From positions 961,001 through 1,025,000 of the forward strand of contig NZ_JIAL01000001.1 in the NCBI RefSeq assembly GCF_000688455.1: a stretch of DNA of 64,000 nt. Direction: 5' to 3'. The stretch is from Pseudacidobacterium ailaaui. GTDB taxonomy: Bacteria > Acidobacteriota > Terriglobia > Terriglobales > Acidobacteriaceae. A program made the position numbers and the translations under genes. This document shows, piece by piece, positions 42,043-56,335 of the stretch (within the stretch, counting starts at the first letter, position 1; each line of letters opens with the position of its first letter). The notes under the pieces were generated by a model. It did not search any database and was not told the DNA's origin. It saw only the letters and a list, made by a program, of their open reading frames with translations.

Positions 42043-43191
42043 TCAGGAGAGTGCCTGTGCCGATTGAGACAGGCACTCATCGTATTTTTCTTCGAGGATG
42101 CGCGTCTGCCGCGCGAGATCGAAATGCTCCTCGATGTATCGCCTTCCCTGCACATGTGCACATTGCCAAAGCGCGTCATCGAGAACAAAGCGCACGATGG
42201 TTTCTGCCAGTTCGGCGATCTCGCGCTCGGGCGGCATGAAACCTCTGAGCCTCTTTGGCAGCGCTTCCAGCACTGCATCCGTTGCGAATGTCACGACAGG
42301 AAGGCCCGCCGCCTGCGCCTCACACAAAACCGTTGGCAGGCCCTCCTGGTCGCCATCAGAGGCACAGATGCTGGGGGCCACCAGTACACGGGCCCGGCGC
42401 ATCCATTGCTTCACCTGCTGATGCGGCTGATGGCCATGGAAAATAACATTTCCTCTGAATGCGACGGCCATCTGCTCCAGCACTTTACGCAGTGGACCGT
42501 CCCCCAAAATGACGAGCCTGGCCCCGGGAACCTGCCTGAGGACCAGCGGCATGGCGCGAAGCAGATCGGCGCATCCTTTTTTCTCAACCAGCCTGCCCAC
42601 AAACAGGATTGTGCTCCTCTCTCGTCCTTCTGCCGAGGTCGCCGGCCGATCCACGGCAACCCCCACCGGATGCACAAACAGCTTATCCGGCGGAAATCCG
42701 CGCAGAAGCGCCTGCCGACGCACATTGCTGGAAACGCAGAAGAACAGGCTTGCATACTGCCATAGCTCCATGCGCCTGCGCAGATATGTCCGTCCTGCGG
42801 GCCAGCGGCGCAGCGCAGCGTCATGGCAGCCAATGTCATAGCCATGCAGTGTAACCAGCAAAGGAAGACGCCAGCGCCGGGCCATAGGCAGGATGGCGCA
42901 GGCATCGACGGCAAAGTGCGCATGGACCAAGCTCGGCCGCTGCCATGCGATCTCTTCCTCCAGCCGGCCGGAGCGTCCTGTCTGGAAAAAGAGGCGCCGC
43001 AGCAGCTTTTCGCGCAGCCGCTCAGAAGCAGAAACGGTCGCGACGGCGTATGGCGCCAGATCAAGACCAGAGAAGACCCGTCTTACTCCGGCAAATACGG
43101 GCACATATCGGCTGAGTGCCGCTGCCTGGGCCAGAACAAAGGTCTCTGACCCAGGCAGCAGCTCGTTGCGATAGATGAGGACCTTTCGCAT
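42043..43191 (-). CDS. GT4-family glycosyltransferase
   Basis: 382 residues with a GT-B fold. The C-terminal nucleotide-sugar half shows ILFVGRLVEKKGCADLLRAM and the E-x7-E pattern in DGDQEGLPTVLCEAQAAGLPVV. It probably adds a sugar from a nucleotide donor to the polysaccharide repeat unit at the cytoplasmic face. It is the last gene of the long minus-strand EPS operon; its ATG immediately abuts the acyltransferase stop codon. Confidence 0.9.
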   Translation of the reverse strand: MRKVLIYRNELLPGSETFVLAQAAALSRYVPVFAGVRRVFSGLDLAPYAVATVSASERLREKLLRRLFFQTGRSGRLEEEIAWQRPSLVHAHFAVDACAILPMARRWRLPLLVTLHGYDIGCHDAALRRWPAGRTYLRRRMELWQYASLFFCVSSNVRRQALLRGFPPDKLFVHPVGVAVDRPATSAEGRERSTILFVGRLVEKKGCADLLRAMPLVLRQVPGARLVILGDGPLRKVLEQMAVAFRGNVIFHGHQPHQQVKQWMRRARVLVAPSICASDGDQEGLPTVLCEAQAAGLPVVTFATDAVLEALPKRLRGFMPPEREIAELAETIVRFVLDDALWQCAHVQGRRYIEEHFDLARQTRILEEKYDECLSQSAQALS

Positions 43192-44319
43192 TTATCGATT
43201 CCCCGAGCGCACAAATGCATGACGCCGTTTAAAGCGCAGGAACGGGGCCTCATAAAAGCGATACGACGCTGAGGCCAATCCGATGGTCAGAGCCAGGGCG
43301 GCCGTTTTGTTCACAACCAGCAGCCATGCTGTCTCCCCGTGCGTAAGGCGCTTCTGTGCCTCATCGACCAACAGGAAAGCCGTTTCATGAAACATGTAAA
43401 GTCCGAAAGAGATCCTTCCTAAAAACAACACCCAGCGTGGAAAAAGCCACCGGCCTGCTTCCAGCACTGCGAGAAACAGGCAAAGACATCCGACCTCCAC
43501 CAGCATGTATCCGAAAAGGAACTGTAAAGCAGACGGATGTGCTTGCGGCCTTTTGATGCGGAATGCAAAAGCGGCCGTCCACCAGGCGACCAGACCTGCC
43601 AGCGCCAGCGCCAGCCGCATTTCTGGTCTCCATTCCGGAGTTCTGCCTTGCAGCGCAAGCGCCAGCAACGCGCCGCAGGCAAAGTATTGAAACTGCACCA
43701 GGCTGTTCAGCCAAACTGTGTTGTACGCAAATGGTCCGCCGGAGACAACCAGGACGGTCATCCAGGAGATCGGCAGGAGCACTAAGGAGGCGGCGCCATA
43801 AGCGCTTCTGTTTCCAAGCCTTCCTAGCACAGGCCAGACCAGATAAAACTGCTCTTCCACAGAAATGCTCCACAGGGCGCGCAAAGGCGTGCGGACCCAG
43901 GGATGCAGCGCAATGTACCAGTTTCCCGCCATCAGGAAATAGGCAGCAATCCTCCCTGTTTCCATGCGCAGGGAGTGAAGGAAGAGGCCCCCGACTGCGT
44001 ACCCTGCGGTGATTCCGTAATACAGCGGCCAGATGCGCAGAACACGCCGGAGATAGAATGCGCGCACATGGACCCGCCCAAACTGCGCCTGCTCGCGACA
44101 CAGCAGCTCTGTGATGAGATACGCGCTCAGAAAAAAGAAGAGGCATACGCCAAAGTTGCCGGCATCTTTGATTCCGGCAATCAGCGGCACTCGTGTCCAG
44201 GCCTCCGGCACCGCATGGCAGAAGTAGACACACAGAAAGGCAAATAGACGCAGGGCGTCCAGCTCTGCAAGATAGAAGCCGGTTGCTGGCTTGCTGAGGA
44301 CAGATGTTGCGGTGCTCAT
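43192..44319 (-). CDS. Acyltransferase 3 family membrane protein (OafA-like)
   Basis: 375 residues, about ten membrane helices. The start has LDALRLFAFLCVYFCHA, the acyltransferase-3 motif with its His, and WSISVEEQFYLVWPVLG, the second conserved motif. Members O-acetylate or otherwise acylate polysaccharide sugars. It overlaps the upstream polymerase gene by four bases (ATGA), so it is translated together with it. It probably decorates the EPS made by this locus. Confidence 0.9.
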   Translation of the reverse strand: MSTATSVLSKPATGFYLAELDALRLFAFLCVYFCHAVPEAWTRVPLIAGIKDAGNFGVCLFFFLSAYLITELLCREQAQFGRVHVRAFYLRRVLRIWPLYYGITAGYAVGGLFLHSLRMETGRIAAYFLMAGNWYIALHPWVRTPLRALWSISVEEQFYLVWPVLGRLGNRSAYGAASLVLLPISWMTVLVVSGGPFAYNTVWLNSLVQFQYFACGALLALALQGRTPEWRPEMRLALALAGLVAWWTAAFAFRIKRPQAHPSALQFLFGYMLVEVGCLCLFLAVLEAGRWLFPRWVLFLGRISFGLYMFHETAFLLVDEAQKRLTHGETAWLLVVNKTAALALTIGLASASYRFYEAPFLRFKRRHAFVRSGNR

Positions 44320-45620
44320 CCTGCCGGGGCCATCCGCACATGGAGTCGTGAGAAGAACTTTTGCCTTTGCTTCAGGAGGCGCTCTTCGGACGCAAGGATC
44401 TCAATATTGGCCAGGGCCGCTACATAGAGCACCCAGAACATGCCGTTGAAGGTGAGCAGCGTATTTTCATCCAGGTCATAGAGAAAGACCAGGACCAGCA
44501 CAAAAAGCATCCATGCACACTCCTGCAGACGGCGCCGCAGCAGCAACGGCCACAGCTTTTTCCAGCCGCGGAGGTAACTGAGGAGAAAGAAGAACAGTCC
44601 GGGCAAGCCCAGCTCCAGCCATATCTCAAGAAAACCATTGTGCGCATGAAACAGCACGAACCGCAGGGCAAGAATGACGTAAAAAGATTCCCCTTTCAGG
44701 CCCTGCCAGAAGGCTGAAAAACCATACCCCAACCACGGATGTCTGAGGATGGCCTCCCAGACCTGCTGCCAGATGGCCGTGCGCCCGGTAAGTGTCGCAT
44801 CGCGTCCCATCAGGGCCACGAGCAGAGGGAAATAGACCCAGGCTGCCCATGCAGTTGCGACAGCGAGTACGATCGCCACGCCCAGCAGCATCGTCCGGGC
44901 CGAAGGCGCAGATCGAAACAGCAGCAGCAGGAACACATAGAGCCCCAGCACCACGGCGGCAATCGCCCAGGCACCGCGCGATCCACTCATGATCAGGACG
45001 GCCGTAAACAGAAGCAGGCACCCCAGACGGATGACATTCAGCCGTCCAAAGGAAAAGATGGCTGCAATGGCAAACACCATTGCGCGTCCGCAGGCATTCT
45101 TCTGGGTAAAGATGCCCTGCCAGTTTCCAAAGTGGCCTGTGGATGCCTCCAGTCCGATGGAAGGGACCGTCCATGCAAGTATGGAACTGGCCAGGGCCGC
45201 AACCAGCATCGTCATGCAAAAGAGAAAGAGCTGCTTTCTCACGGGAAATCTGGCCGCAAAGTACAGGCCGAACAGACAGGCCAGCACAAATGCTATCGAG
45301 CGGCGTGCTGTAGTTACAGGGTCCTGCGACCAGAGGGACGAGAGCGCCGCCCATGTTGCAAAAACTGCGCTCCATTGCAGAGCAAATCGCAGGCGGTAAA
45401 GCCTCCGCCATTGATGGACCACCAGCGCAGCAATCCAGCCGTCCACGATAAGCTGTGATCCGATGCCTGCAATCTTCATCCATGAAGTCGCCGCGGCATT
45501 TGTCATCTCCGCCGCCTGGTTGGGAGCAATTCCCGGAATGGCCCCCTGCATGGCAAAGAAGAGCAGAACCAAAACGCAGCCTGCCTCCGCAATGCCGGGC
45601 TTGCCTTTAGCGCGCTGCAT
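44316..45620 (-). CDS. O-antigen ligase/polymerase family membrane protein
   Basis: 434 residues with about twelve membrane helices and a large periplasmic loop containing GRTAIWQQVWEAILRHPWLGYGF and, later, AHNGFLEIWLELGLPGL, the hallmark of the Wzy_C (WaaL/Wzy) family. In this setting, next to Wza and Wzz genes, it is more likely the repeat-unit polymerase (Wzy) than the lipid A ligase. It overlaps the Wza-like gene by 14 bases. Confidence 0.87.
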   Translation of the reverse strand: MQRAKGKPGIAEAGCVLVLLFFAMQGAIPGIAPNQAAEMTNAAATSWMKIAGIGSQLIVDGWIAALVVHQWRRLYRLRFALQWSAVFATWAALSSLWSQDPVTTARRSIAFVLACLFGLYFAARFPVRKQLFLFCMTMLVAALASSILAWTVPSIGLEASTGHFGNWQGIFTQKNACGRAMVFAIAAIFSFGRLNVIRLGCLLLFTAVLIMSGSRGAWAIAAVVLGLYVFLLLLFRSAPSARTMLLGVAIVLAVATAWAAWVYFPLLVALMGRDATLTGRTAIWQQVWEAILRHPWLGYGFSAFWQGLKGESFYVILALRFVLFHAHNGFLEIWLELGLPGLFFFLLSYLRGWKKLWPLLLRRRLQECAWMLFVLVLVFLYDLDENTLLTFNGMFWVLYVAALANIEILASEERLLKQRQKFFSRLHVRMAPAG

Positions 45621-46509
45621 AGATGGCCGCCGAGCTGGTGGAAGAAAGGATCCCCGATGCGCCTACCACAACATTTCTGGCCATGCTGAAGGGAATGTAA
45701 AGCACGTCGCCAGCTTCCAGTTCCATGTCCGGCTGGCTTCCTCGTTCCATGTCTTTCAGCGGAATGGTCTGCTCCTGATATCGGCCCTGGACCTTCCGCA
45801 GCAGGCGTGCGGCATTTTCTTTTGCCGAGCGGTTGGCGCCAGCAGCCAGTGCGATGGCCTGCAGGACAGTAAGCTTTGCATCATCCTGCATCACATAGCC
45901 GCCAGGACGTCCCACATCACCCAGCACATAGACCACGCCTGCCTTCGGCACCAGAACGGTATCTCCGGGATGGACCATCACCGTATTTTTCAGATCGGTC
46001 GAGGCATCGTTTGGAACAAAAACCGTCAGACTCCCGCTTTTATCTCCGCGCTCGATCGTGATGTGCCGGTCGGCGACATCTGTCAGTCCTCCGGCGAGAG
46101 AAAGTACGTCCAGAAGGCTGCGTGAGGTCATTAATGGGACCGCACCTGGGCGGGCCACCTGTCCCAGCACAGACACCTGCTGCGTCGCATACTCTTCAAT
46201 CAGCACTGAGACCTGGGGATGGTTTAGATACTTCCCCTGTTCATACGCCTGCGCAATTTTCAGCGCAGCTTCTCCCGGGACGAGTCCGACCACAGAGACG
46301 GCACCGACCAGGTCGAGATCAATTTCACCCGAATCCCTCACGCGCACATGCTGCTCCAGGTCCGGCTCGCGAAAAACGGAGACATGCAATAAATCACCGC
46401 TGGAAATCCGCAGACTTTCTTTTTTGTCTGCAGCCCGTGCGGAAAGAGCAGAAAAGCAGAACAGGAGTGCGAGCAATATGCCTCTGCGGGCCGCTGTCCT
46501 AAGCCCCAT
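45607..46509 (-). CDS. Polysaccharide export protein (Wza-like)
   Basis: 300 residues from the ATG at 46509, which overlaps the end of the Wzz/kinase gene by 11 bases; a longer open frame upstream lies inside that gene. The signal peptide ends FSALSARA-AD; unlike E. coli Wza there is no lipobox cysteine at the cleavage site. A polysaccharide-export (PES) domain (RISSGDLLHVSVFREPDLEQ) is followed by two SLBB units (VSVLGQVARPGAVPL; VYVLGDVGRPGGYVM). It should form the periplasmic/outer membrane part of the export channel. Confidence 0.9.
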   Translation of the reverse strand: MGLRTAARRGILLALLFCFSALSARAADKKESLRISSGDLLHVSVFREPDLEQHVRVRDSGEIDLDLVGAVSVVGLVPGEAALKIAQAYEQGKYLNHPQVSVLIEEYATQQVSVLGQVARPGAVPLMTSRSLLDVLSLAGGLTDVADRHITIERGDKSGSLTVFVPNDASTDLKNTVMVHPGDTVLVPKAGVVYVLGDVGRPGGYVMQDDAKLTVLQAIALAAGANRSAKENAARLLRKVQGRYQEQTIPLKDMERGSQPDMELEAGDVLYIPFSMARNVVVGASGILSSTSSAAIYAAR

Positions 46510-48763
46510 GACCTTTACTCCGATATCCGTAGTATTCGTAGAAGTCAGACGAACCTTCCGGGACAGCATTCAGCACGGCCCCCATCACCATACCGGCCGG
46601 AGCATGGCGCAGCAGCGTGTCCCAGCCGCGCTTGAGTGCTCGTCTCTCCGTAAGGCCATGTCGGCAAAGAAGCAGCACAGCATCACAGTGCCGGAGCAGG
46701 ACCGCAGCATCAGCCACTGGCAGTAGCGGAGGACCATCCAATACCACGAAGTCGTACTCATTTCTCCAACGCTGCACCAGATTCTGCATTCTGCGCGAAC
46801 CAAGTAATTCTGCCGGGAAGGGAGGTGCCGGCCCGCCGAGCAGAACATCCAGATTCGGCATCTCCGGCAGTGGTTCCGGCGCCGGAGAGATCCCTTCATT
46901 GGACAGGGCCGCACTAAGGGCCGATCGAGACTGGACGCCGGTGCGCCCAGAAAGGACCGGACGGCGCAGATCACACTCTGCCAGCAACACCCGCGCGCCC
47001 TGCTGGGCCAGCACAGAAGCCAGCTCCAAAGAAACGGTGCTCTTGCCCTCACCCGCGCCTGGACTGGTGACCAGCAGGACCTGCGGCGGGTTGCTGCTTC
47101 TTGAAAGCATCAATGTGGTACGAAGCATCCGCAGGGATTCGGCGAAGGGAGCGTCTGTATAGCGGATGGTCATGATCTGGTCTGAGGCCCGGGCCTTCGT
47201 CATGGCTGGTCCGCAGCCCGGTACAGGTACCAGCCCCAGCACCGGCCCGCCCGTCATCTTCTCCACACTTTCCAAGGAACGGATGGTATGGTCCGCGGCG
47301 TGTTCCACAAAGGCGGCCGCAGAGCCAGAGAACAGACCCATGACGAGGGCCGCAGCAAAACAGAGCAGGACATTGGGGCTCTTCGGATGTGCGGGCGACG
47401 GAACTCGTGCAGGATTCACCACGGTAATGTTGGTGGACCGCAGACCTTCAAGCACGCCGGCCTCTTTCAGCTTGGCCAGAAGGTTCTCATAAACCTGACG
47501 ACTCCCTTCTGCCTCCTGCTTTGCCAGGGCAAAGGCCACGGCCTTGTTGTTCAGATCGCCGGCCAGTCTCTTCTGTTTTTCAAAGGCAGTGTGTGCATCA
47601 ACTTCTGCGCGCCGGGCAATCTCATAATCCGTGCGTGCCCGCTCTCCGATGCGGTGGACTTCCTCCTGGATGGCCTTCTGTATGCTGTTCCATTCGGCCT
47701 GTAGTTCAGCAATGCGCGGATAGTTCTGCCCATACCGTACCCGGTCCTGGTCCAGCTCTGCCCTGACTGTGGCCTCCTGACTGCGCAGGCTCTGGAGCAG
47801 ACCAAGAGAATTGGCCATGGAGGGAATGCTGCCTGCGGCGGCGTTTCCGCCAAGACCGGAAATCAGCTCCGGGTCTCCGCTGCTGGCAGCGCGGTAGATG
47901 GATTCTTTCAGGATGCGGTTGGACTCTGCCTCGGCCCATGCCTGGTTCAGAGCTTCCAGTCTCGCCAGAACAATGTTGTGCGATTCGTCCTCGCCATACA
48001 CGCCGGTATCGCGCTCCAGCATCAGCGCTTTGGCCTGGAGACGCTCCGTTTGTCCACGGAGATCGTCCAGCTGCGCTGACAGCCATTGAGAGGCCTGCGA
48101 GGTAGCCGCAAAACGGGACTGATACGAATATTCCATCAAAGCCGCGATGAGGTGGTTGACCACGGCGGCCGCCAGCTTCGGGTCCGGGCTGGAATAACGC
48201 ACCTCAATCAGACGGGTCCCCGTGATGGGCTCAACCTTCAAATGCGAGGCGAATCTCTTGAGGGCCGCATATCTGCGGTCCGGCGCCTGGTCCAGCCCCA
48301 CCGTGAGAGGCTCCAGCGGCTTCTTCCAGAAAAACAGCCAGGAGGGAAGGCCCCACTGATCTTTTTTCGGGGGAAAGAAGTCCTGCGTCGTCTCCAGATG
48401 AAGCTCTCGGATGACCTGCAAGGCCAGCGAGTCAGACTGGAGGATCCTGGCCTCAGTCTGCAGGGTCACATTGTAGTCAAGCGCATCGGAGGTCGGTGCG
48501 TCCGCTCCACCCAGCACGCTTTCGTCCAAACCAAAAGATCCCAGGGTCTCTTTCTGGACCTGGATCTGCCCAATGGCCTGATAGCGGCGCGTGGCCAGCG
48601 CACAGTAGAGGGCCGCGGCAAGCATACAGGCACCAAAGACAACAAAAAATGTCCTGCGCCTCTGCTTCAGAATGGCAAACATCTGCGCAGGAGAAGCCTC
48701 CTCATCCCGTAGGGCGCGCAGGTCCACTCCTGGCAGGGCGCTCATTGGTGTTGTCTCAGGCAT
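46499..48763 (-). CDS. Fused Wzz chain-length protein and BY-type tyrosine kinase
   Basis: 754 residues. The N part has two membrane helices around a Wzz periplasmic domain with long coiled coils (about residues 210-420) and a GNVR-type end (NPARVPSPAHPKSPNVLL). The C part is a bacterial tyrosine kinase: Walker A SPGAGEGKS (near 567), Walker A' AECDLRRP, Walker B FVVLDGPPLL, and a terminal tyrosine cluster DFYEYYGYRSKG. Cycles of autophosphorylation of this cluster normally control EPS chain length. No PHP or low-molecular-weight phosphatase gene is seen in the window. Confidence 0.93.
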   Translation of the reverse strand: MPETTPMSALPGVDLRALRDEEASPAQMFAILKQRRRTFFVVFGACMLAAALYCALATRRYQAIGQIQVQKETLGSFGLDESVLGGADAPTSDALDYNVTLQTEARILQSDSLALQVIRELHLETTQDFFPPKKDQWGLPSWLFFWKKPLEPLTVGLDQAPDRRYAALKRFASHLKVEPITGTRLIEVRYSSPDPKLAAAVVNHLIAALMEYSYQSRFAATSQASQWLSAQLDDLRGQTERLQAKALMLERDTGVYGEDESHNIVLARLEALNQAWAEAESNRILKESIYRAASSGDPELISGLGGNAAAGSIPSMANSLGLLQSLRSQEATVRAELDQDRVRYGQNYPRIAELQAEWNSIQKAIQEEVHRIGERARTDYEIARRAEVDAHTAFEKQKRLAGDLNNKAVAFALAKQEAEGSRQVYENLLAKLKEAGVLEGLRSTNITVVNPARVPSPAHPKSPNVLLCFAAALVMGLFSGSAAAFVEHAADHTIRSLESVEKMTGGPVLGLVPVPGCGPAMTKARASDQIMTIRYTDAPFAESLRMLRTTLMLSRSSNPPQVLLVTSPGAGEGKSTVSLELASVLAQQGARVLLAECDLRRPVLSGRTGVQSRSALSAALSNEGISPAPEPLPEMPNLDVLLGGPAPPFPAELLGSRRMQNLVQRWRNEYDFVVLDGPPLLPVADAAVLLRHCDAVLLLCRHGLTERRALKRGWDTLLRHAPAGMVMGAVLNAVPEGSSDFYEYYGYRSKGHGA

Positions 48764-49742
48764 TCCGCATCATCACAACAGAGCCATCAAAATCAAAGCT
48801 GAATTCCATCTCGTGCGCCCCGGCCTCTGCCAGAACGGTGCGGAGACGGTTTCTGTCCTGCGTGTGAAACAACAGGAACCCGCTGCCTCCTGCACCGACC
48901 AGCTTCCCGCCGGTCGCTCCTCCCTTGCTCAGCGCAACTTCGTACAGGGAGTCAATGCGACTACTGGTCATGCCCGGCGAACGCTTGCGCTTGCGCAGCC
49001 AGTGTTCATGCATCAACCTGCCGAACTGACCCACCTGCCCGGATTCAAGGACACTTCGGATCTCTTCTCCCAGCTGCCGGGCGAAGTGCAGGTCTTTGAG
49101 CATCTCCGGATCTCGCTGCTCAGAGCGCTTTTTCTGGTCGGCCAGCAGGCAGGAGGCGCAGCGCGTCTGCCCTACAAAGAAAAGCATGAGGGAATCGCGC
49201 AACTCCCGCAGCGTGGTCTCACTCAGATGCAGAGGAAAAACATGCACAGAATCGTCTGTGCGATATTCCTGGCACAGCAGTCCTCCATAAGCTGCAATGT
49301 ACTGGTCCTGCTTGCCTACCGGCTCCTGCAGCCGGTTCATCTCAATTTCGATGGCTTCTCGGGCCAGGTCTTCGGCAGTCACGCGCTTACGCTCATAGGC
49401 ATACAGCGCATGAAGAAGTCCGACGGTAAATGTCCCGGAAGAGCCTAGCCCGGTCCCGGCCGGAACATCCGCAATGCTGACGATCTCCAGTGGATAGGGC
49501 GTTTCATGCAGGGTCAGGGCTTCGCGAAAGAGCGGGTGCCGGATCTGCTCACAGCTCTGGACATGTTCCATTTCGGAATATTTGAGGAAGTATCCCGGAA
49601 GAAAACTCTTGTTGATGCTGATATAGACATACTTGTTAATGGCAGCAGAGATCACGAAGCCGCCAAACTCCCGGTAATACGAAGGAAGGTCCGTACCGCC
49701 GCCGCCAATGGAAATCCGCAGGGGTGTGCGTGTGAGAATCAT
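48756..49742 (-). CDS. hddA: D-glycero-alpha-D-manno-heptose 7-phosphate kinase
   Basis: 328 residues of the GHMP kinase family. It starts TRTPLRISIGGGGTDLPSYY, typical of HddA-type sugar kinases, with the phosphate loop VPAGTGLGSSGTFTVGLL and a C-terminal GGATGGKLVGAGGSGFLLF. The enzyme makes D-glycero-alpha-D-manno-heptose 1,7-bisphosphate. It overlaps the hddC gene by four bases and the Wzz gene by eight, which ties heptose production to EPS export. Confidence 0.88.
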   Translation of the reverse strand: MILTRTPLRISIGGGGTDLPSYYREFGGFVISAAINKYVYISINKSFLPGYFLKYSEMEHVQSCEQIRHPLFREALTLHETPYPLEIVSIADVPAGTGLGSSGTFTVGLLHALYAYERKRVTAEDLAREAIEIEMNRLQEPVGKQDQYIAAYGGLLCQEYRTDDSVHVFPLHLSETTLRELRDSLMLFFVGQTRCASCLLADQKKRSEQRDPEMLKDLHFARQLGEEIRSVLESGQVGQFGRLMHEHWLRKRKRSPGMTSSRIDSLYEVALSKGGATGGKLVGAGGSGFLLFHTQDRNRLRTVLAEAGAHEMEFSFDFDGSVVMMRNA

Positions 49743-50470
49743 CCCGCCACTCCTGGAGACAACAGATTCCGGGCCAGATACTCTTCTGTCATGCGCAGCC
49801 CCTCAAAGGAGCCGATTTCATAGAACCGTCCATCTACTTCATGCGCAGCCAGCAGTCCTTGTGCGGCCAGACGGCCCATGACCTCTTCCAGATCAAAACA
49901 GGCGCCCTCCGGCCAGGCCTGCAACACCTCGGCACGCAGAATGTTCAGACCATAATCGATGTACTGCATCCCGTCTGTCCGGCAGCTTTTGCTGTAGCGA
50001 ACGATCCTTCCCTCGCGGACCTCAACATTACTGGCATCCCATCTGCCTTCATTGCGGAAGATGGTCATCAGCGCCGGTTTTCCGGAATACAGAAAGTCGT
50101 TCCAAGCCGCAGCAAAGCCAGCCGTCAGATAGCTGTCCCCGTAAAGAACGAAAAACTCCTCCCCCAGTAAAGGGAGTGCGCGGCGCAAGGCCCCGCCCGT
50201 GCCCAGTGGAGCATCTCCGTCGTGAGAATAGAAAATCCTGCAACCGAAACGGGACCCATCGCCAGCAAAACTCCGGACCTGCTCTCCCTGATGGCCAATA
50301 CAGAGGACGACCTCGCGCACCCCATGCGCAGCCAGTAATCGTAGCTGGTGGGCAAGGAAAGGCTCTCCACAAACCGGAAGCAGTGACTTTGGAATAGATC
50401 GCGTCAGCGCTCCCAGGCGGGTGGCCAGTCCGCCGGCAAGAAGTGCGAGTCTGGGCAGCGCCTCAGGCAT
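49739..50470 (-). CDS. hddC: Sugar-1-phosphate nucleotidyltransferase (HddC-like, heptose)
   Basis: 243 residues. The nucleotidyltransferase signature is LALLAGGLATRLGALTRSIPKSLLPV, and VLYGDSYLT is the metal-binding Asp region. Beside hddA and with gmhA/gmhB nearby it most likely makes GDP-D-glycero-alpha-D-manno-heptose from the 1-phosphate. The sequence alone would equally fit a mannose-1-phosphate or glucose-1-phosphate transferase; the assignment rests on context. It overlaps the epimerase gene by eight bases. Confidence 0.82.
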   Translation of the reverse strand: MPEALPRLALLAGGLATRLGALTRSIPKSLLPVCGEPFLAHQLRLLAAHGVREVVLCIGHQGEQVRSFAGDGSRFGCRIFYSHDGDAPLGTGGALRRALPLLGEEFFVLYGDSYLTAGFAAAWNDFLYSGKPALMTIFRNEGRWDASNVEVREGRIVRYSKSCRTDGMQYIDYGLNILRAEVLQAWPEGACFDLEEVMGRLAAQGLLAAHEVDGRFYEIGSFEGLRMTEEYLARNLLSPGVAG

Positions 50471-51458
50471 AGCACAGCCTTTCTTCCTTCAGGATTTCCA
50501 GGAGCGAACGCTGCATGGCTTCATAGCTGGTAAATCGAGGACTCCATCCGAGCCGCTGGATTTTCTCTGTGTTTAAACGCACAACCGGCACATCGCCCTT
50601 CCAGCCCCGGTCTCCGCCTGAATACTCAAACTCGGGCATGGCATCCAGCTTGAGGCATTGCACAGCAAGATGAGCAATTTCCGTTACGGTGATGGCATCC
50701 TGTGTAGCGACATTGAAGACAGAGAAGGCCTCATGGCAGCGCTCTTCCACACACAGAACGGCGTCCACAACATCAGAAACATGGATGTAATGCTTGCTTT
50801 GCCTTCCATTGCCAAGGATGCGCAGCAGACGCGGATTTTCCCTCAGTTTGCGGACAAAGTCGAACCCCACGCCATGTGTCTGTCGCGCCCCCACAACATT
50901 GGCAAAGCGGAAAGCACGCGCAGTCATTCCAAACATAGAACAGTAAGCAGAGACCATGGCTTCCCCCGCCAGCTTGCTGGCGCCGTAAGTAGAGACAGGA
51001 AACCAGGGACCTTGCTCCTCACTCACGCTCCTGGGTCCCGTATCGCCATAGACACCGCTCCCGGATGCGTAGAGCAGGCGCGGCACTCCGGTGCGACGCA
51101 TCGCTTCCAGCACATTGCTGGTCAGTGCTGTGCCTTGGCGGAAATCGATCTCTGGATCGCTTGCGGCTCGGGCGATCTCAGGGTTGGATGCAAGATGCAG
51201 GACCACATCATGTCCTGCCATTTCGTGTGAAAGCAATGCCAGGTCCGCGGCCTCTCCCTGCACGAAGCGGAAGCGAGGGGACTCCAGATGATGGTGAAAG
51301 TGCCACTCCCGTCCAGAAGAAAGATTGTCGTAGACCGTGACTGCAGCCACGCTCTCATTGCTGAGTAGTGCGTCTGCAAAGTGGCTGCCAAGAAAGCCGG
51401 CCCCGCCCACAAGGAAATATTTTCTTCCGCCGCCGTTGTATGGGGGAGAAACAGACAT
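50463..51458 (-). CDS. NAD-dependent sugar epimerase/dehydratase (extended SDR)
   Basis: 331 residues. The NAD site is FLVGGAGFLGSHFADALL, and the catalytic pair is YGASK with an upstream Ser-rich strand (LLYASGSGVYGDT). It resembles GalE/RfbB-type nucleotide-sugar enzymes; in this operon it could act on a GDP-heptose or another precursor. It is the first gene of the minus-strand operon, so the promoter for eight genes should lie in 51459-51724. Confidence 0.87.
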   Translation of the reverse strand: MSVSPPYNGGGRKYFLVGGAGFLGSHFADALLSNESVAAVTVYDNLSSGREWHFHHHLESPRFRFVQGEAADLALLSHEMAGHDVVLHLASNPEIARAASDPEIDFRQGTALTSNVLEAMRRTGVPRLLYASGSGVYGDTGPRSVSEEQGPWFPVSTYGASKLAGEAMVSAYCSMFGMTARAFRFANVVGARQTHGVGFDFVRKLRENPRLLRILGNGRQSKHYIHVSDVVDAVLCVEERCHEAFSVFNVATQDAITVTEIAHLAVQCLKLDAMPEFEYSGGDRGWKGDVPVVRLNTEKIQRLGWSPRFTSYEAMQRSLLEILKEERLCYA

Positions 51459-51580
51459 AGGCGAAATTCCTCAAGCGCAGACAAGCTGCGCCAAGTTTGT
51501 AGCTTGTTAGTAAAAGCAACTTAGCAGAGATAACTTCGACGAAAAACATTACGTAAGTTTGCCCGCGCAGAGTGATTTGC

Positions 51581-51609
51581 TTGACTAGCAATGGGGCCAC
51601 CGCGATATA
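51581..51609 (+). promoter_or_regulatory. Possible promoter of the GT2-WecG-transaldolase unit
   Basis: TTGACT (51581-51586) is followed after 17 bases by GATATA (51604-51609), or after 19 by TATATA. It lies in the A/T-rich 266-base gap between divergent EPS units. The gap also has an 8-bp palindrome TTACGTAA at 51549-51556. I see no gene in the gap. Confidence 0.4.
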
Positions 51610-51724
51610 TAACAGCTAACTTACGAGTTAAATTTATCTTTTTTACTTTGTTGCCTTTTCTGGCCTTGGCCCCGTCTGTGTTGTTTTTCAACCGACATGC
51701 CTGCGCGCAGAAAGGCATTGAGGA

Positions 51725-52705
51725 GTGGCCGTGCAGGATTGCTCGATTACTGTTGGTCTGCCTGTCTGCAATGCGATGCCTTATCTGCCCGAGGCGGTCG
51801 AAAGCCTGCTCTCGCAGACAGCAACCAACTTCCGGATTCTTGCCATCGTTGACGGCGGCAGGGACGAAAGCCTCGAATATCTTCTCTCAGTCCGCGATCC
51901 CCGTCTTCGGGTCATTCCGCAGGTCCACTGCGGTCTGGCTTATACGCTCAACCGGATGCTGCGCGAGGCGGAAACACCATGGCTGGTGCGGCAGGATGCC
52001 GATGACGTATCTCACCCTACGCGCCTGGCGCGCCTGCTCGATGCCATCGCAGAGCATCCGGACGCGGGCATGTTTTATTCGCTGGCCGAGTATTATCCCC
52101 CGGACCATAGTCTGGGCCACTTTCGCTGCACGCGCGGCACACCGCAGCAGCTCCGCCAGATTGTGCAGTCTGGCTACCTGCTTTCCATCTGCCATCCTTC
52201 TGTGGCCCTGAATGTTCAGAAGACGCTGGCCCTGGGGGGATATCGAAATCTGCTTCACGCTGAAGACGCAGACCTGTGGTGGCGGATGGCCTTGCAATAT
52301 GAGATTTACCTGGTCCCGGAAGTATTGGTCGGGTTCCGGCACAACACGAGCAGCATCAGCTCACAACATTCCTATACACAGGAACTGCACGGTCTCTACA
52401 TTCAATATCTGCTTGTCTCTCACTTAATCGGAAAGACCCCGCAGCCGCTCAGCCAGATTGCGCCACTGTTGCAGGCCCAAATCTCAGACAGACGGTTTGC
52501 TGCCAAGCAGCACCTTCGCCACCTGAACATGCACCTGGCGGCAAATCGCTACCTTCGGGCGGTGGCGAGCCTGGGCCGGTCATTTCTTTCCTCACCCGGA
52601 TATCTTCTCCAGCGCATTCGGGAAGAGTTGCTGCCCTTGGGAAAGATTGCAAACGGCATTTCACCCGATGTTTTCTACCGCAGCATGGAGCTCTTTTGGC
52701 CATGA
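51725..52705 (+). CDS. GT2-family glycosyltransferase
   Basis: 326 residues from a GTG at 51725; a second GTG at 51731 has the better-placed GAGGAG. The GT-A fold starts SITVGLPVCNAMPYLPEAVESLLSQ and holds LVRQDADDVSHPTRLARL, the Asp-rich metal/nucleotide site. It should add a sugar to the lipid-linked repeat unit. It is the first of three coupled plus-strand genes. Confidence 0.88.
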   Translation: MAVQDCSITVGLPVCNAMPYLPEAVESLLSQTATNFRILAIVDGGRDESLEYLLSVRDPRLRVIPQVHCGLAYTLNRMLREAETPWLVRQDADDVSHPTRLARLLDAIAEHPDAGMFYSLAEYYPPDHSLGHFRCTRGTPQQLRQIVQSGYLLSICHPSVALNVQKTLALGGYRNLLHAEDADLWWRMALQYEIYLVPEVLVGFRHNTSSISSQHSYTQELHGLYIQYLLVSHLIGKTPQPLSQIAPLLQAQISDRRFAAKQHLRHLNMHLAANRYLRAVASLGRSFLSSPGYLLQRIREELLPLGKIANGISPDVFYRSMELFWP

Positions 52706-53508
52706 AAAGCAGCCCACGCTTCACCATCGCAGGTGTCCCTGTAGACCATACCACGCTGCGAGAAGCAGCAGCCATGGTCCTGGGCAGGCTCCTTGCGCCA
52801 CGCGGTCCGCAGCCTATGCTCATCATGGGGCCCAATGCTCACCTGATGACTCTGGCCCAAAAACATGCCCGTTTTGCAGAAGCTTTGCGCGCTTCCGACC
52901 TGAATGTCCCCGATGGTATGTCCGTGGTCCTGGCGTCACGCATCCTCGGTCATTCCCTGCCGGAGCGAGTGACAGGAGGCGATCTGATGGAAGAGCTTTG
53001 CAGACAAGCCGCCCTGCATGGCCTCAGTATTTTTTTGCTCGGCGGTCTGCCCATGGCTGCGCGCCTGGCGGCCCGGAAGCTGCAACGCAAATATCCCGGA
53101 CTGAAGGTCGCCGGCACATATTGTCCGCCGATGGGCTTTGAATCCTGCAGGGAAGAAAATTCACGGATCCAGGACCTGATTGCCGCGGCCCGGCCCGATC
53201 TGCTCTTCGTGGCCTTTGGCGCTCCGAAGCAGGAGCTATGGATGCATGAGATCTGCCGGTCGCTGCCCGTAGGTGCAGTCCTGTCAGTGGGTGCGGCGTT
53301 GGACACACAGGCAGGATTACGCCGCCGCGCTCCCAGATGGACGCACCGGACAGGCCTGGAGTGGTTTTACCGCCTCCTGCTTGAACCGCGCCGCCTCTGG
53401 CGCCGCTATCTCCTCGGAAACCCCTATTTTCTCTATCTCGTTCTCAGGCAGAGGTTCTTCCCGAAAGACTTCTGCCAGTTGCTCCCGGAGTTGCACACAA
53501 AATCATGA
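52702..53508 (+). CDS. WecG/TagA/CpsF-family glycosyltransferase
   Basis: 268 residues from the ATG at 52702, which overlaps the GT2 stop (ATGA). Family motifs: LNVPDGMSVVLASRILGH, RVTGGDLMEELC, FLLGGLPMAARLAARKL and LLFVAFGAPKQELWMHE. These GT26 enzymes transfer N-acetylmannosaminuronate, N-acetylmannosamine or similar sugars from UDP donors to undecaprenyl-linked acceptors. The donor in this locus is unknown. Confidence 0.9.
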   Translation: MKSSPRFTIAGVPVDHTTLREAAAMVLGRLLAPRGPQPMLIMGPNAHLMTLAQKHARFAEALRASDLNVPDGMSVVLASRILGHSLPERVTGGDLMEELCRQAALHGLSIFLLGGLPMAARLAARKLQRKYPGLKVAGTYCPPMGFESCREENSRIQDLIAAARPDLLFVAFGAPKQELWMHEICRSLPVGAVLSVGAALDTQAGLRRRAPRWTHRTGLEWFYRLLLEPRRLWRRYLLGNPYFLYLVLRQRFFPKDFCQLLPELHTKS

Positions 53509-54251
53509 CCTCCCTCGAACATCTCAACATCAAATTGTTTTGCGATGCGGCCGATTTCAGCAGCCTGCTGGCATGGTCCGCGGACCCTCGCATCCAGGGC
53601 TTCACCACCAACCCTACACTGATGCGCAAGGCCCGCGTCCTGGACTACGAGGCCTTTGGCCGCGAACTGGTGCGGGTCATCCCTGACCGTCCCATCTCCT
53701 TTGAGGTTCTGGCCGATGATCCGGAGACCATCGAAGAGCAGGCCCTGGCCATCGCAGGCTGGGGACCGAACGTATATGTAAAAGTTCCGGTTACAAATAG
53801 CTGGGGTGCCTTTCTCGGACCGGTCCTGCAAAACCTCTCACGGGCCGGTGTGCAGCTGAACGTGACCGCCCTTCTTACGGTCAACCAGGTAGAACAGGTT
53901 GCGGCCTGCCTGCATCCCTCGACCCCGGCCATCATCTCTGTTTTTGCCGGCAGAATTGCAGACACCGGAGTAGACCCGGTCCCCATCATGCGCCAGGCTG
54001 CGCGCATTACCGCCTCCCTGCCGGATGCAGAGCTACTCTGGGCCAGCCCTCGTGAGCTGCTCAACATTTTTCAGGCCGAAGAGGCAGGCTGTGACATCAT
54101 CACGCTGCTCCCGGACATCCTCAGCAAGCTCGACCTGATTGGAAAAGACCTGGAAGCCTATTCGCTGGAGACGGTAAACATGTTTTACCGGGACGCATGC
54201 GCCGCAGCGTATCACATTGACACGCGCAAACCCGTGGGGCTGACGGCCTGA
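53505..54251 (+). CDS. Transaldolase/fructose-6-phosphate-aldolase-like protein
   Basis: 248 residues, the short transaldolase class. Key sequences: GFTTNPTLMRKA, the Schiff-base lysine in VYVKVPVTN, SVFAGRIADTG, and LLWASPRELLNI. True transaldolases interconvert sedoheptulose 7-phosphate plus glyceraldehyde 3-phosphate with fructose 6-phosphate plus erythrose 4-phosphate. Sedoheptulose 7-phosphate is the substrate of GmhA encoded close by, so a dedicated supply role is plausible. The ATG overlaps the previous stop (ATGA) and its 3' end overlaps the convergent gmhB end by 40 bases. Confidence 0.88.
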   Translation: MTSLEHLNIKLFCDAADFSSLLAWSADPRIQGFTTNPTLMRKARVLDYEAFGRELVRVIPDRPISFEVLADDPETIEEQALAIAGWGPNVYVKVPVTNSWGAFLGPVLQNLSRAGVQLNVTALLTVNQVEQVAACLHPSTPAIISVFAGRIADTGVDPVPIMRQAARITASLPDAELLWASPRELLNIFQAEEAGCDIITLLPDILSKLDLIGKDLEAYSLETVNMFYRDACAAAYHIDTRKPVGLTA

Positions 54252-54793
54252 TCCGCAACAATCCTTTGCACCGCGGCCCATAGGTCCGCAGCGACCAAAT
54301 CGGCCGTGGTCCCTGCGGAAGCGTGGCTGGACACAAAAACTGTCTTCACGCCTGCTGCAAGGCCGCAGTGCACGTCCGTAATGCGGTCGCCAATCATCCA
54401 GGATGCATCAAGCTGCACTCCCAGCCGATCGCGCGCCTGAAAAAGGAAATAAGGCGATGGTTTGCGGCAAAGACAAGGTCCGGTAAATTCCGGATGGTGA
54501 AAGCAATAATAAGCAGCATCCAGAAAGAGGGACTGCTCTCGCAGAAGCGCTTCCAATCTTGCGTGGATCGCATCCAGCGTCTGCATGGTTGCCTTGCCCT
54601 TGGCCGCATTCGGCTGGTTAGAGACCAGCACCAGCAGGTAACCCGCATCGCGCAACAGCTTCAGCGCCGGGACAACTCCAGGCAGCAACTCCATCCGTTC
54701 CGGTGCAAGAGGCGATTCATAGGCTTGCGTCTTCGGGTTCCAGACATTGCGGTTGAGCGTGCCGTCGCGGTCAAGAAAAACGGCGCGCTTCAT
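54212..54793 (-). CDS. gmhB: Heptose 1,7-bisphosphate 7-phosphatase (GmhB)
   Basis: 193 residues from the ATG at 54793, which overlaps the gmhA stop (ATGA). It is an HAD phosphatase: AVFLDRDGTLNRN holds the nucleophile and acid Asp, VSNQP is motif II, zinc-loop cysteine/histidine residues occur in CFHHPEFTGPCLCRKP, and WMIGDRITDVHCG is motif IV. It removes the 7-phosphate from heptose bisphosphate. Its last 40 bases overlap the transaldolase gene on the other strand. Confidence 0.92.
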   Translation of the reverse strand: MKRAVFLDRDGTLNRNVWNPKTQAYESPLAPERMELLPGVVPALKLLRDAGYLLVLVSNQPNAAKGKATMQTLDAIHARLEALLREQSLFLDAAYYCFHHPEFTGPCLCRKPSPYFLFQARDRLGVQLDASWMIGDRITDVHCGLAAGVKTVFVSSHASAGTTADLVAADLWAAVQRIVADQAVSPTGLRVSM

Positions 54794-55398
54794 GCCACCA
54801 CCATTTCTGATTCCCACTTCATTTCATTTGCTTTTAAGCGGGGATGGGAAACGATCAGGTGCCATACCACCGCCTGAAATGCCTCCACCAGCGGCGTCAC
54901 GGTGTCCTCGGAAACTGTGGGAATGACAATGCAGGCATCCGCAGCCTGCGCCGTATGTCCGCCATCGCGCCCAACCACGCCGAGAATACGCGCGCCTACC
55001 CGCTGCGCCAGCTCCAGGCTGCGCACAAGGTTCATGCTGATGTTCCGCTCGCGGCTTCCACCCCCAACTGAAAACACAAACACCGCATCCCGAGCATGGA
55101 TTCTGCTGCCGCGCAGCCAGTTGGCATAGCAGCTCTCCCACCCGTCATCGTTGATGCGTGCGGTCAACTCGGAGACGTTGTCGCTGGGCGCATAGCACTC
55201 TATCCCGGCAATCTTACGGAAGTCGTTCACCGCATGGCTGGCGTGTCCCGCGCCCCCTCCCACTCCGAGGAAGAACACGCGCCCGCCGTTTTCGCGCACC
55301 TCTGCCAAATGGGAAACCATCTCTTCGACCTTCTCTCTGTCCAGAAGCCGCGTGATGGTCTGCACTTCATCCAGAAAACGCTCGGTGTAGTTCGTCAT
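54790..55398 (-). CDS. gmhA: Sedoheptulose 7-phosphate isomerase-like SIS protein (GmhA)
   Basis: 202 residues from the ATG at 55398 (MTNYTERFLDEVQTITRLL); the longer open frame lies inside the upstream gene. The SIS fold shows GRVFFLGVGGGAGHASHAVNDFRK and FVFSVGGGSRERNISMNLV. GmhA converts sedoheptulose 7-phosphate to D-glycero-D-manno-heptose 7-phosphate, the first heptose step. It diverges from E. coli GmhA in the metal-binding region, as HddA-linked homologues do, so the role is partly from context. It overlaps the upstream GT2 gene by 32 bases. Confidence 0.86.
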   Translation of the reverse strand: MTNYTERFLDEVQTITRLLDREKVEEMVSHLAEVRENGGRVFFLGVGGGAGHASHAVNDFRKIAGIECYAPSDNVSELTARINDDGWESCYANWLRGSRIHARDAVFVFSVGGGSRERNISMNLVRSLELAQRVGARILGVVGRDGGHTAQAADACIVIPTVSEDTVTPLVEAFQAVVWHLIVSHPRLKANEMKWESEMVVA

Positions 55399-56335
55399 GC
55401 TGAAACCGCTCCTCTGCCCTTCCGTAGCATGGACCTCGCAGCGTCCTGCGCTTCTCTCCAGGAAAGACACGGAAGAGAAAAAACAAGATCGTTTGGCCAA
55501 GGCCCGGACGCCCCCGCATGAAACACTCCCGAAACAACTCTGCGAAAGCAGCGGCCCCTGCGCCAGCTTTGCGCGCTCGCGTCACACATTCTGTCGCAAT
55601 GAAAAATGAATACGCCTTTGCGGTCATGCGTTCGCGGTTGGCCCGCGCCCACTCCAGAGAAACGCGCCAGTCCCCCGAGCTGCTGACGCTTTGCTGGCCG
55701 CCTTCAATCTGCATGACGGTCAGCGCATCCGGCAGCATCACAATCTCCACGTCTTTACGCTGCGCGATTTTCAGCAACCAGTCCCAGTCCTGGTGCCGCT
55801 TCAGTCCTCTCTGAAACGGAACTTCGAGCAGCAGTTCCCGCTTTGCCAGCAGTGTTGAAGTCTGCAACATGCCATCGCCATAGGCGAGACCTTTCCGGCA
55901 AAAGAGATATTCGCTTACATCCTGACCGCGACGATACAGCCTGCGCGGCAAGACACGTCCACCTGCGATCAGCCGCGAGCCCACAACCGGATACTCCGCA
56001 CCAGATGAAAGAGCGGCCTGCATCTGCTTTTCCAGCTTTTCTGGAAACCATTCGTCGTCATCATCGAGAAAAGCAATCCATTCACCCGAAGCTGCACGCA
56101 CTCCGATGTTGCGCGCCTCCGCGCCACCAACGTTTTCGCGCAAAGAGATGGTCCGCAATCGAGGAGCAGAGATTTCCCTTACTGCACACTCCGTGATTTC
56201 ATCCGGCCCATCGATCACCACGATGACTTCAACCGGAGCATAGCTTTGCGCCAGCGCGCTGCTTACCGCGCGTACGATCCATTGCGGCCTCCCCCGGGTT
56301 GGGATGACCGCGCTTACCAGCGGACGAGCAGGCAA
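55367..56335 (-). CDS. GT2-family glycosyltransferase
   Basis: 322 residues from a TTG at 56335 with AAGGA about ten bases upstream; no in-frame ATG is available before the conserved start LVSAVIPTRGRPQWIVRAV. The GT-A site is WIAFLDDDDEWFPEKLEKQ. It is the first gene of the gmhA-gmhB unit and may transfer the heptose itself; that is inference from context. The C-terminal part (GRPGLGQTILFFLFRVF) looks like a membrane-associated helix. Confidence 0.87.
   Translation of the reverse strand: MPARPLVSAVIPTRGRPQWIVRAVSSALAQSYAPVEVIVVIDGPDEITECAVREISAPRLRTISLRENVGGAEARNIGVRAASGEWIAFLDDDDEWFPEKLEKQMQAALSSGAEYPVVGSRLIAGGRVLPRRLYRRGQDVSEYLFCRKGLAYGDGMLQTSTLLAKRELLLEVPFQRGLKRHQDWDWLLKIAQRKDVEIVMLPDALTVMQIEGGQQSVSSSGDWRVSLEWARANRERMTAKAYSFFIATECVTRARKAGAGAAAFAELFRECFMRGRPGLGQTILFFLFRVFPGEKRRTLRGPCYGRAEERFQHDELHRAFSG

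Follow-up and report, generated by a model that had tools for sequence, protein, structure and literature searches.

The lincosamide pathway is, to our knowledge, the sole nucleotide-sugar route with a dedicated transaldolase. Among eight-carbon sugars, acids are common (Kdo, for instance) and LPS is known to contain branched octoses, e.g. yersiniose A; unbranched aldo-octoses are known to us only from antibiotics. In the lincosamide literature, function is marked as shown for four GDP-octose enzymes, the transaldolase LmbR, the octulose 8-phosphate isomerase LmbN, the phosphatase LmbK and the guanylyltransferase LmbO, and as predicted for the kinase LmbP; the epimerase LmbM, predicted in 2015, had its function identified by 2020. 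The GDP-heptose of the C. jejuni capsule is reported to be made by four enzymes starting from sedoheptulose 7-phosphate (S7P), and the word 'transaldolase' is absent from the main text of that paper. A further source describes the K antigens of E. coli as containing 'several octoses' (PMC10072801), which we take to be eight-carbon acids such as Kdo.

In the current study we analysed a 64,000-nt stretch of Pseudacidobacterium ailaaui NZ_JIAL01000001.1 (the window; coordinates are window positions), for which a preliminary description had proposed a full GDP-heptose route with its own transaldolase in an exopolysaccharide locus, an arrangement that its author had not seen described. The enzyme classes are already described for lincosamide GDP-octose; for polysaccharide loci, no description of a transaldolase or an octose was found among the papers listed by a literature search, as judged from titles and abstract openings, with most subscription journals outside its coverage.

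Results

The genes of the locus are as follows.

42043-48763, minus strand: downstream exopolysaccharide genes (Pfam: Wzc-like, Wza-like, Wzy_C, acyltransferase 3, GT4)
48756-49742, minus strand: HddA-like GHMP kinase (HddA, 146 bits), proposed anomeric (C1) kinase
49739-50470, minus strand: HddC/MurU-like nucleotidyltransferase (MurU, 103 bits), proposed to synthesise the NDP-sugar
50463-51458, minus strand: GalE-like SDR (Pfam Epimerase, 151 bits), proposed NDP-sugar epimerase
51725-52705, plus strand: GT2 glycosyltransferase, first gene of the transaldolase operon (Pfam Glycos_transf_2, 76 bits)
52696-53508, plus strand: WecG/TagA/CpsF glycosyltransferase (Pfam, 201 bits), overlapping the transaldolase start by 4 bp
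53505-54251, plus strand: transaldolase of the TIGR02134 'staph' type, 248 aa (TIGR02134, 310 bits), proposed to form the long ketose phosphate by transferring three carbons to a sugar phosphate
54212-54793, minus strand: GmhB-like HAD-IIIA phosphatase (NCBIfam GmhB models), proposed to remove the terminal phosphate
54790-55398, minus strand: GmhA-fold SIS isomerase (gmhA, 39 bits), proposed ketose-phosphate/aldose-phosphate isomerase
55367-56335, minus strand: GT2 glycosyltransferase, head of the GT2-SIS-HAD unit (Pfam Glycos_transf_2, 97 bits)

An ORF check of the locus confirmed gene starts and stops and found no internal stops, so that the genes and coordinates of the preliminary description were correct. 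Genes inside each of the three units overlap their neighbours by 4-32 bp, as expected from the coupling that it had proposed, the transaldolase and WecG/TagA/CpsF genes among them. The SDR gene (50463-51458) is missing from the reasoning given there. Among the downstream genes, the Wzc-like product carries Wzz, GNVR and P-loop domains and the Wza-like product Poly_export and SLBB domains (Pfam), and relatives keep the Wzc-Wza-Wzy order.

The transaldolase scores 310.2 bits against a curated cut-off of 281.95 for TIGR02134 (NCBIfam) and 124 bits with Pfam TAL_FSA. Across 21 aligned transaldolase rows Lys93, Asp14, Asn36, Thr121, Ser181 and Arg183 are unchanged, Lys93 aligning to the Schiff-base lysine, Lys86, of T. 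acidophilum transaldolase, and the active site is intact. Glu67 and Phe147, equally invariant in the 21 rows, align with E60/F132 of transaldolase and not with Q59/Y131 of fructose 6-phosphate (F6P) aldolase, and these transaldolase-type residues disfavour an F6P aldolase identity. The structural model (pLDDT 94) has transaldolase 1VPX as its best match. The enzyme, which the preliminary description regarded as dedicated to the locus, is not the sole copy in the genome: a second transaldolase of 355 aa, presumably the housekeeping enzyme, is encoded at C1:1053718-1054626.

The SIS protein has the GmhA fold by structure comparison; it reaches 39 bits against a gmhA cut-off of 209 (NCBIfam) and 23 bits against a Pfam SIS_2 cut-off of 27, so that its assignment rests on NCBIfam and fold with Pfam below cut-off. 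At the GmhA zinc site, H/E/Q/H in 31 of 31 GmhA rows, the window protein has H55/D59/E172/H180, and H/D/E/H is found in all 87 transaldolase-linked (cassette) SIS rows complete at the four sites, two further rows of the 89-row alignment being gapped there. Two of the four ligands are thus changed, including a Q-to-E replacement, and in the GmhA study that gives the zinc ligands, a Q175E variant is reported as inactive (PMC5705639). Plain GmhA was rejected on these ligands in a comparison of 89 cassette rows with 31 canonical rows and 10 rows from a middle group, and as judged by its defining zinc ligands the protein is not a GmhA. Loss of activity is disfavoured, since H55, D59, E172 and H180 are invariant and metal-capable. 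This middle group of SIS proteins, with no transaldolase within the 16-18 kb examined, also has H/D/E/H (10/10), so the zinc site is not specific to C8 chemistry and was dropped as a marker on its own. The loop at GmhA's SxSGN is the better mark: it measures 8 residues in 31/31 GmhA and 10/10 middle-group rows, and 14 in 87 of the 89 cassette rows (12 in the other two), and this six-residue insert is peculiar to the transaldolase-linked proteins, which form a separate clade on the tree.

The preliminary description had suggested checking whether the transaldolase stays with a gmhA-like gene in relatives, and this was found to be so. An SIS gene accompanies it in 24 of 24 relatives' loci. In a draw of 150 genomes, all 25 with a strong transaldolase also had a strong SIS linked to it, as compared with a strong SIS in 6 of the 125 others (Fisher p 4e-23, uncorrected for shared ancestry), the latter being the 6/150 with a strong SIS and no strong transaldolase. 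A public scan with at least 591 pattern matches gave at least 579 confirmed matches, and in the best 80 of these SIS was linked to the transaldolase in 61 loci from many groups, although the SIS profile, drawn from rows next to transaldolases, is biased towards detecting SIS in that setting. The gene is absent from the available stretch in 19 of these best 80 of at least 579, and 10 of the 19 have more than 3 kb on both sides. An HddA-like kinase occurs in 33, an HldE-like fusion in 23, both together in none and neither in 24 of the best 80 of at least 579. SDR/Gfo-Idh genes vary between transaldolase loci, and at one relative's locus (L064) an F6P-aldolase-like protein replaces the TIGR02134 enzyme. 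The transaldolase tree has no clean split between cassette and stand-alone enzymes, the cassette label needing 10 changes, and a Streptomyces plasmid enzyme is placed inside the cassette enzymes.

Heptose names for the SIS, kinase, nucleotidyltransferase and HAD genes are weakly grounded in their scores. The kinase reaches 146 bits against an HddA cut-off of 600 (NCBIfam), its nearest structures being HddA-named (PDB 3K85, 157 bits). The nucleotidyltransferase scores 103 bits for MurU, 75 for mannose-1-P GTase and 73 for HddC (cut-off 300), and as it is closer to MurU than to HddC, GDP is not assured. The HAD phosphatase matches two NCBIfam GmhB models at 121 and 106 bits, both below cut-off (150 for the latter), and a PDB GmhB at 92 bits; its gene overlaps the SIS gene by 4 bp, and the two are fused in 4 of 24 relatives' loci. 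The SDR carries a YGASK motif at Tyr158 and matches PDB 3EHE (named GalE-1) at 262 bits; its near-equal NCBIfam scores for dTDP-glucose dehydratase (127 bits) and galE (124 bits) leave its reaction uncertain. In 7 of the best 80 of at least 579 loci, the gene directly after SIS encodes a relative of this SDR (499-541 bits).

A canonical gmhA/hddA/hddC-gmhB cluster lies 0.83 Mb from the window locus, and no transaldolase was present in the 19-kb stretch holding it. Its scores (192, 351, 142 and 126 bits) likewise fall below the cut-offs (209, 600, 300 and 150), so that sub-cut-off scores are in themselves a weak argument.

Discussion

Based on these findings, we consider it on balance probable that the locus is dedicated to supplying the exopolysaccharide made by the surrounding genes with a nucleotide-activated aldose of higher carbon number, most likely an octose; the sugar would probably be eight-carbon, as in lincomycin, rather than an ordinary heptose. 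This reading is favoured by the class match to the lincosamide route, the transaldolase-SIS linkage, the zinc and loop changes of the SIS protein and the existence of separate canonical heptose genes. What the sequence provides is the enzyme classes, an intact transaldolase active site, the linkage and the departure of the SIS protein from GmhA; which substrates are used, how many carbons the sugar has, which nucleotide activates it and what the SDR catalyses are what we infer. The transaldolase would move dihydroxyacetone from F6P (or S7P) to ribose 5-phosphate, giving octulose 8-phosphate, which the altered GmhA-fold SIS may turn into the aldose 8-phosphate. The GHMP kinase would then add a C1 phosphate, the HAD enzyme would take off the 8-phosphate and the nucleotidyltransferase would yield an NDP-octose, GDP being suggested by analogy, to be epimerised by the GalE-like SDR and used by the GT2/WecG transferases. 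Other organisms' transaldolases are also reported to make octulose 8-phosphate from ribose 5-phosphate, and the transaldolase alone therefore does not fix the carbon number.

It is rather unlikely that the enzyme instead makes S7P locally, from F6P and erythrose 4-phosphate, for GDP-heptose or for a heptose of another configuration. Transaldolases normally make S7P, all four GDP-heptose enzyme classes are present, as the preliminary description had recognised, and the nearest structures of the kinase (HddA-named) and the phosphatase (GmhB) are heptose enzymes, which by likeness counts against an octose. The label of a full GDP-heptose route is nevertheless probably wrong: two of the four zinc ligands of GmhA are missing from the SIS protein, which also differs in the SxSGN loop, the same genome has its canonical heptose cluster elsewhere, without a transaldolase, as well as another transaldolase, and where a strong-transaldolase genome also has a canonical gmhA of at least 149 bits (13 of 25), the two genes are always apart.

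We regard as distinctly unlikely a pathway of the same type in which another acceptor aldehyde leads to a C7-C10 or branched sugar, neither standard heptose nor lincosamide-type octose. The F6P-aldolase-like stand-in at locus L064 would fit such a pathway, as would the two different activation modules and varied SDR/Gfo-Idh genes beside the transaldolase, from which end products probably differ between groups; nothing positive points to any other acceptor, however, and no precedent is simpler than the lincosamide set. That a housekeeping or salvage transaldolase is present here by chance, unlinked in relatives, which the preliminary description had named as a finding against its own proposal, is very improbable given the SIS linkage (25/25 family genomes; 61 of the best 80 of at least 579 loci) and the other transaldolase, even though TIGR02134-type relatives without cassette genes occur in S. 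aureus, Treponema and Streptomyces plasmid records and two Streptococcus loci.

More broadly, and more tentatively than for the octose assignment itself, it is quite possible that a cassette in which a transaldolase extends the chain of higher-carbon (octose-type) nucleotide sugars occurs widely in bacterial surface-polysaccharide loci across many phyla. Its activation module would be interchangeable, either a GHMP kinase with a nucleotidyltransferase or an HldE-like fusion, and the lincosamide octose would be a specialised offshoot of a pathway general to glycans. If so, unbranched aldo-octoses would be common yet overlooked constituents of bacterial slime and O-chains, including the exopolysaccharide of a probably acidobacterial family and the products of loci carried by Rhizobium and Lawsonia plasmids; the 'GmhA/heptose' labels given to a distinct clade of isomerases would be corrected, and a transaldolase beside a cassette-type SIS would be a ready marker for finding such polymers.

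Comparison with known systems

The window protein exceeds the curated cut-off of the Staphylococcus-type family TIGR02134, whereas in the stretches examined from S. aureus, Streptococcus and Treponema the enzyme has no sugar cassette around it; some residues (W86, R41) differ between the window and stand-alone enzymes, five stand-alone rows being compared. Relative to ADP-heptose synthesis by HldE, an HldE-like fusion takes the place of kinase and nucleotidyltransferase in 23 of the best 80 of at least 579 loci and is not present in the window; its domains are in swapped order, and two such fusions reached 131-148 bits where the cut-off is 521. With the GDP-heptose route the window shares distantly homologous kinase, phosphatase and nucleotidyltransferase genes and the GmhA fold of its SIS protein, but that protein is without the GmhA zinc ligand set and SxSGN loop, and a dedicated transaldolase is added.

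S. lincolnensis was absent among the best 80 of at least 579 transaldolase matches, and a TldD/PmbA search of the P. ailaaui genome gave no match. The lincosamide cluster (LmbR/N/P/K/O/M and the Ccb homologues) makes an antibiotic, whereas the window holds an exopolysaccharide cluster in which no lincosamide condensation genes were noticed. The window set nevertheless matches it class for class, when compared by enzyme class and not by sequence, and the two would share the order transaldolase, ketose-phosphate isomerase, anomeric kinase, phosphatase, nucleotidyltransferase and epimerase, that of the window being proposed; window-type kinase-nucleotidyltransferase neighbours and SIS-SDR pairs (the latter in 7 of the best 80 of at least 579 loci) recall lmbO-P and lmbN-M.

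Organisation of the exopolysaccharide locus

The genome of P. ailaaui forms a single contig of 3.69 Mb (C1), of which the window is part. Within the exopolysaccharide locus the pathway genes, whose enzyme classes were assigned with Pfam and NCBIfam, are spread over three units with overlapping genes, and the gene coordinates of the preliminary description proved sound.

Unit 1, minus strand: GT2-SIS-HAD (SIS isomerase, 54790-55398; HAD phosphatase, 54212-54793)
Unit 2, plus strand: GT2-WecG-transaldolase (transaldolase, 53505-54251)
Unit 3, minus strand: SDR-nucleotidyltransferase-kinase (50463-51458, 49739-50470 and 48756-49742), continuing into Wzc-like, Wza-like, Wzy_C, acyltransferase and GT4 genes

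The transaldolase scored 310 bits to TIGR02134 (cut-off 282), and Lys93 and its other active-site residues were invariant in an alignment of 21 proteins. The residue pair separating transaldolase from F6P aldolase, at positions taken from the titles of solved variants (T. acidophilum E60Q/F132Y and E. coli Q59E/Y131F), aligns with Glu67 and Phe147, which is the transaldolase type, and the AlphaFold model (pLDDT 94) found its best matches among solved transaldolases. A single further TAL_FSA protein is encoded in the genome, namely a transaldolase of 355 aa, so the enzyme of the window is accessory.

Linkage of the transaldolase and the SIS isomerase

It had been proposed to check whether the transaldolase stays beside the gmhA-like gene in relatives, and it does. 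Among 24 loci from relatives (L040-L063, one per genome, TIGR02134 matches of at least 272 bits), an SIS gene lies near the transaldolase in all 24 (in L041 as a contig-edge piece only), an HddA-like kinase is present in 20, and the complete twelve-gene order from GT2 to Wzy is kept in 13. In a draw of 150 family genomes, the host included, a strong transaldolase was found in 25 (24 above the cut-off) spanning 14 genera, and all 25 carry the cassette SIS (G048 as a 100-bit piece); six have a strong SIS (at least 235 bits) without a strong transaldolase and 119 have neither. The resulting association (Fisher p 4e-23) treats genomes without correction for shared ancestry, and the SIS profile (A1) was built on rows from transaldolase loci and is thus tuned to them.

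Two genomes with the SIS and no strong transaldolase encode an F6P-aldolase-like protein (139-145 bits), in the same locus as the SIS in G056 and on a different contig in G041. In G073 and G068, likewise lacking a strong transaldolase, the SIS is broken over frames; in stretches of about 20 kb each, the SIS of G028 stands apart from any other cassette gene and that of G072 belongs to a SIS-HAD-NTase-kinase set lacking a transaldolase. Cassette remnants were seen in two family members (L162 and L163), with the SIS, and in L162 also the kinase, broken over frames. Locus L161 carries SIS-HAD-nucleotidyltransferase-kinase but no transaldolase; the genes lie downstream of one for a large protein that, by eye, resembles an NRPS adenylation protein. 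In L040, L043, L044 and L052 the SIS and HAD domains share one fused frame of 385-407 aa.

The linkage reaches far beyond what could be known when it was first claimed. A scan of public genome contigs with a Streptomyces plasmid transaldolase as query, of which the best 80 of 579 confirmed matches were kept, revealed the cassette SIS in 61 of these 80 loci, within 1.5 kb of the transaldolase in 52; it was absent despite more than 3 kb on each side in ten (two being Streptococcus), and in nine the stretch was too short to judge. By record title, which may mislead as many are MAGs, the SIS-bearing loci belong to Acidobacteria, Actinobacteria, Chloroflexi, Bacteroidetes, Nitrospiraceae, Eremiobacterota and several proteobacterial classes. 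Complete sets occur on plasmids of Rhizobium jaguaris and of the intracellular bacterium Lawsonia intracellularis, whose plasmid 3 (L069) adds a nucleotide-sugar dehydrogenase and a Gfo/Idh/MocA oxidoreductase. On stretches from one S. aureus, one Treponema and one Streptomyces plasmid record (11-29 kb) the cassette profiles matched the transaldolase only; on the plasmid of Streptomyces sp. 3211 (L068) the neighbours of the TIGR02134-like transaldolase gene are a D-arabinono-1,4-lactone oxidase gene and one annotated as hexitol phosphatase HxpB, with no SIS cassette.

The SIS isomerase departs from GmhA

The zinc ligands of GmhA (H64, E68, Q175 and H183) are described as completely conserved among orthologues, and Q175E as inactive (PMC5705639). 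We aligned the 89 cassette SIS rows with 31 canonical GmhA (from the host genome and 30 relatives' loci) and 10 members of a middle SIS group. In this alignment the site reads H/E/Q/H in 31/31 canonical rows and H/D/E/H in 87/87 complete cassette rows, two being gapped there. The middle group (L196-L205) also has H/D/E/H (10/10) with no transaldolase in stretches of 16-18 kb, so the ligand change by itself does not mark out the cassette. What does set the cassette SIS apart among the aligned rows is a lengthened SxSGN loop, which we take to be the phosphate-binding loop of GmhA: it has 8 residues in all 41 non-cassette rows, and 14 in 87 of the 89 cassette rows (12 in two), with SVGGG in the 14-residue loops viewed and G-G-G in 89/89. 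In a quick tree without bootstrap, including 36 of the 89 cassette rows, these form one side of a branch (SH-aLRT 99, length 4.5). The middle-group loci also carry an HddA-like kinase (300-330 bits), and in three viewed by eye (L197, L199 and L202) the HAD is of a different type (FDMDGV/FDLDGV).

Judged by the defining zinc site as aligned, the "GmhA" of the window is not GmhA. As its AlphaFold model (pLDDT 90) retains the GmhA fold (TM about 0.73), a metal-dependent isomerase acting on a different sugar phosphate would be expected.

The host encodes a canonical set elsewhere:

C1:1,839,900-1,842,860, canonical heptose cluster: GmhA (192 bits), HddA (351), HddC-GmhB fusion (142 and 126)

These proteins likewise fall below curated cut-offs, so the case against GmhA rests on residues and not on scores. 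Canonical gmhA (at least 149 bits) occurs in 13 of the 25 strong-transaldolase family genomes, in all 13 on a different contig from the transaldolase or at least 100 kb away. No transaldolase was found in 19 kb around the host's canonical cluster, nor is one mentioned for the C. jejuni heptose cluster in the main text of its description (PMC10680097). The preliminary description had proposed a full GDP-heptose route with a dedicated transaldolase supplying sedoheptulose 7-phosphate (S7P) locally. The heptose label is probably wrong, given the altered zinc site and the true heptose set elsewhere, and local S7P supply is probably mistaken too.

Two activation modules

Among the best 80 of 579 matches, the transaldolase is accompanied by an HldE-like fusion (>200 bits) in 23 loci and by an HddA-like kinase (>100 bits) in 33, never by both; 24 have neither within the available stretch, one of which (L131) has a sub-threshold 170-bit HldE-like match. 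No SIS was seen in 7 of the 23 HldE-like loci. The fusion has a swapped domain order, with the cytidylyltransferase-like nucleotidyltransferase first and the PfkB kinase second, and is 516-519 aa long in the three measured beside a transaldolase:

L124:12762-14312
L091:12739-14295
L101:12821-14380

Both module types act on the anomeric carbon in heptose pathways; a common product of the type of a heptose-like higher sugar phosphate would agree with this.

Comparison with the lincosamide octose route

The pentose-phosphate pathway ordinarily provides S7P, whereas octulose 8-phosphate is, to our knowledge, outside its textbook form; since the two heptose clusters compared also manage without a transaldolase, a dedicated one would be sensible for an octose. 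We read the locus as a putative nucleotide-sugar pathway for an octose, or another higher-carbon aldose, destined for exopolysaccharide, and would put the chances of an octose slightly above even; the case argues by analogy and economy and falls short of a demonstration. The window nucleotidyltransferase may use UTP instead of GTP, because its MurU score exceeds its HddC score.

In the lincosamide literature (PMC5854111, PMC4351081, PMC7014725, PMC12945683), the transaldolase LmbR joins a C3 unit from F6P or S7P to ribose 5-phosphate, LmbN is the octulose 8-phosphate isomerase, LmbP the C8 kinase (marked as predicted), LmbK the C8 phosphatase, LmbO the C8 guanylyltransferase and LmbM the C8 epimerase; octuloses are there noted from many organisms, and a trypanosome transaldolase as producing octulose 8-phosphate. 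No description of a transaldolase/octose pathway in polysaccharide loci was found in the open-access literature searched. The window holds one gene for each enzyme class of the route, a likeness of enzyme class. Gene order offers further parallels: lmbO adjoins lmbP as the window nucleotidyltransferase adjoins the kinase, and lmbM adjoins lmbN just as a close relative of the window SDR comes directly after the SIS in 7 of 80 loci (best 80 of 579 matches). The cassette would appear to be a variant of the lincosamide-type enzyme set, new in its setting: the lincosamide route is an antibiotic pathway, whereas the cassette's enzyme set sits in polysaccharide loci.
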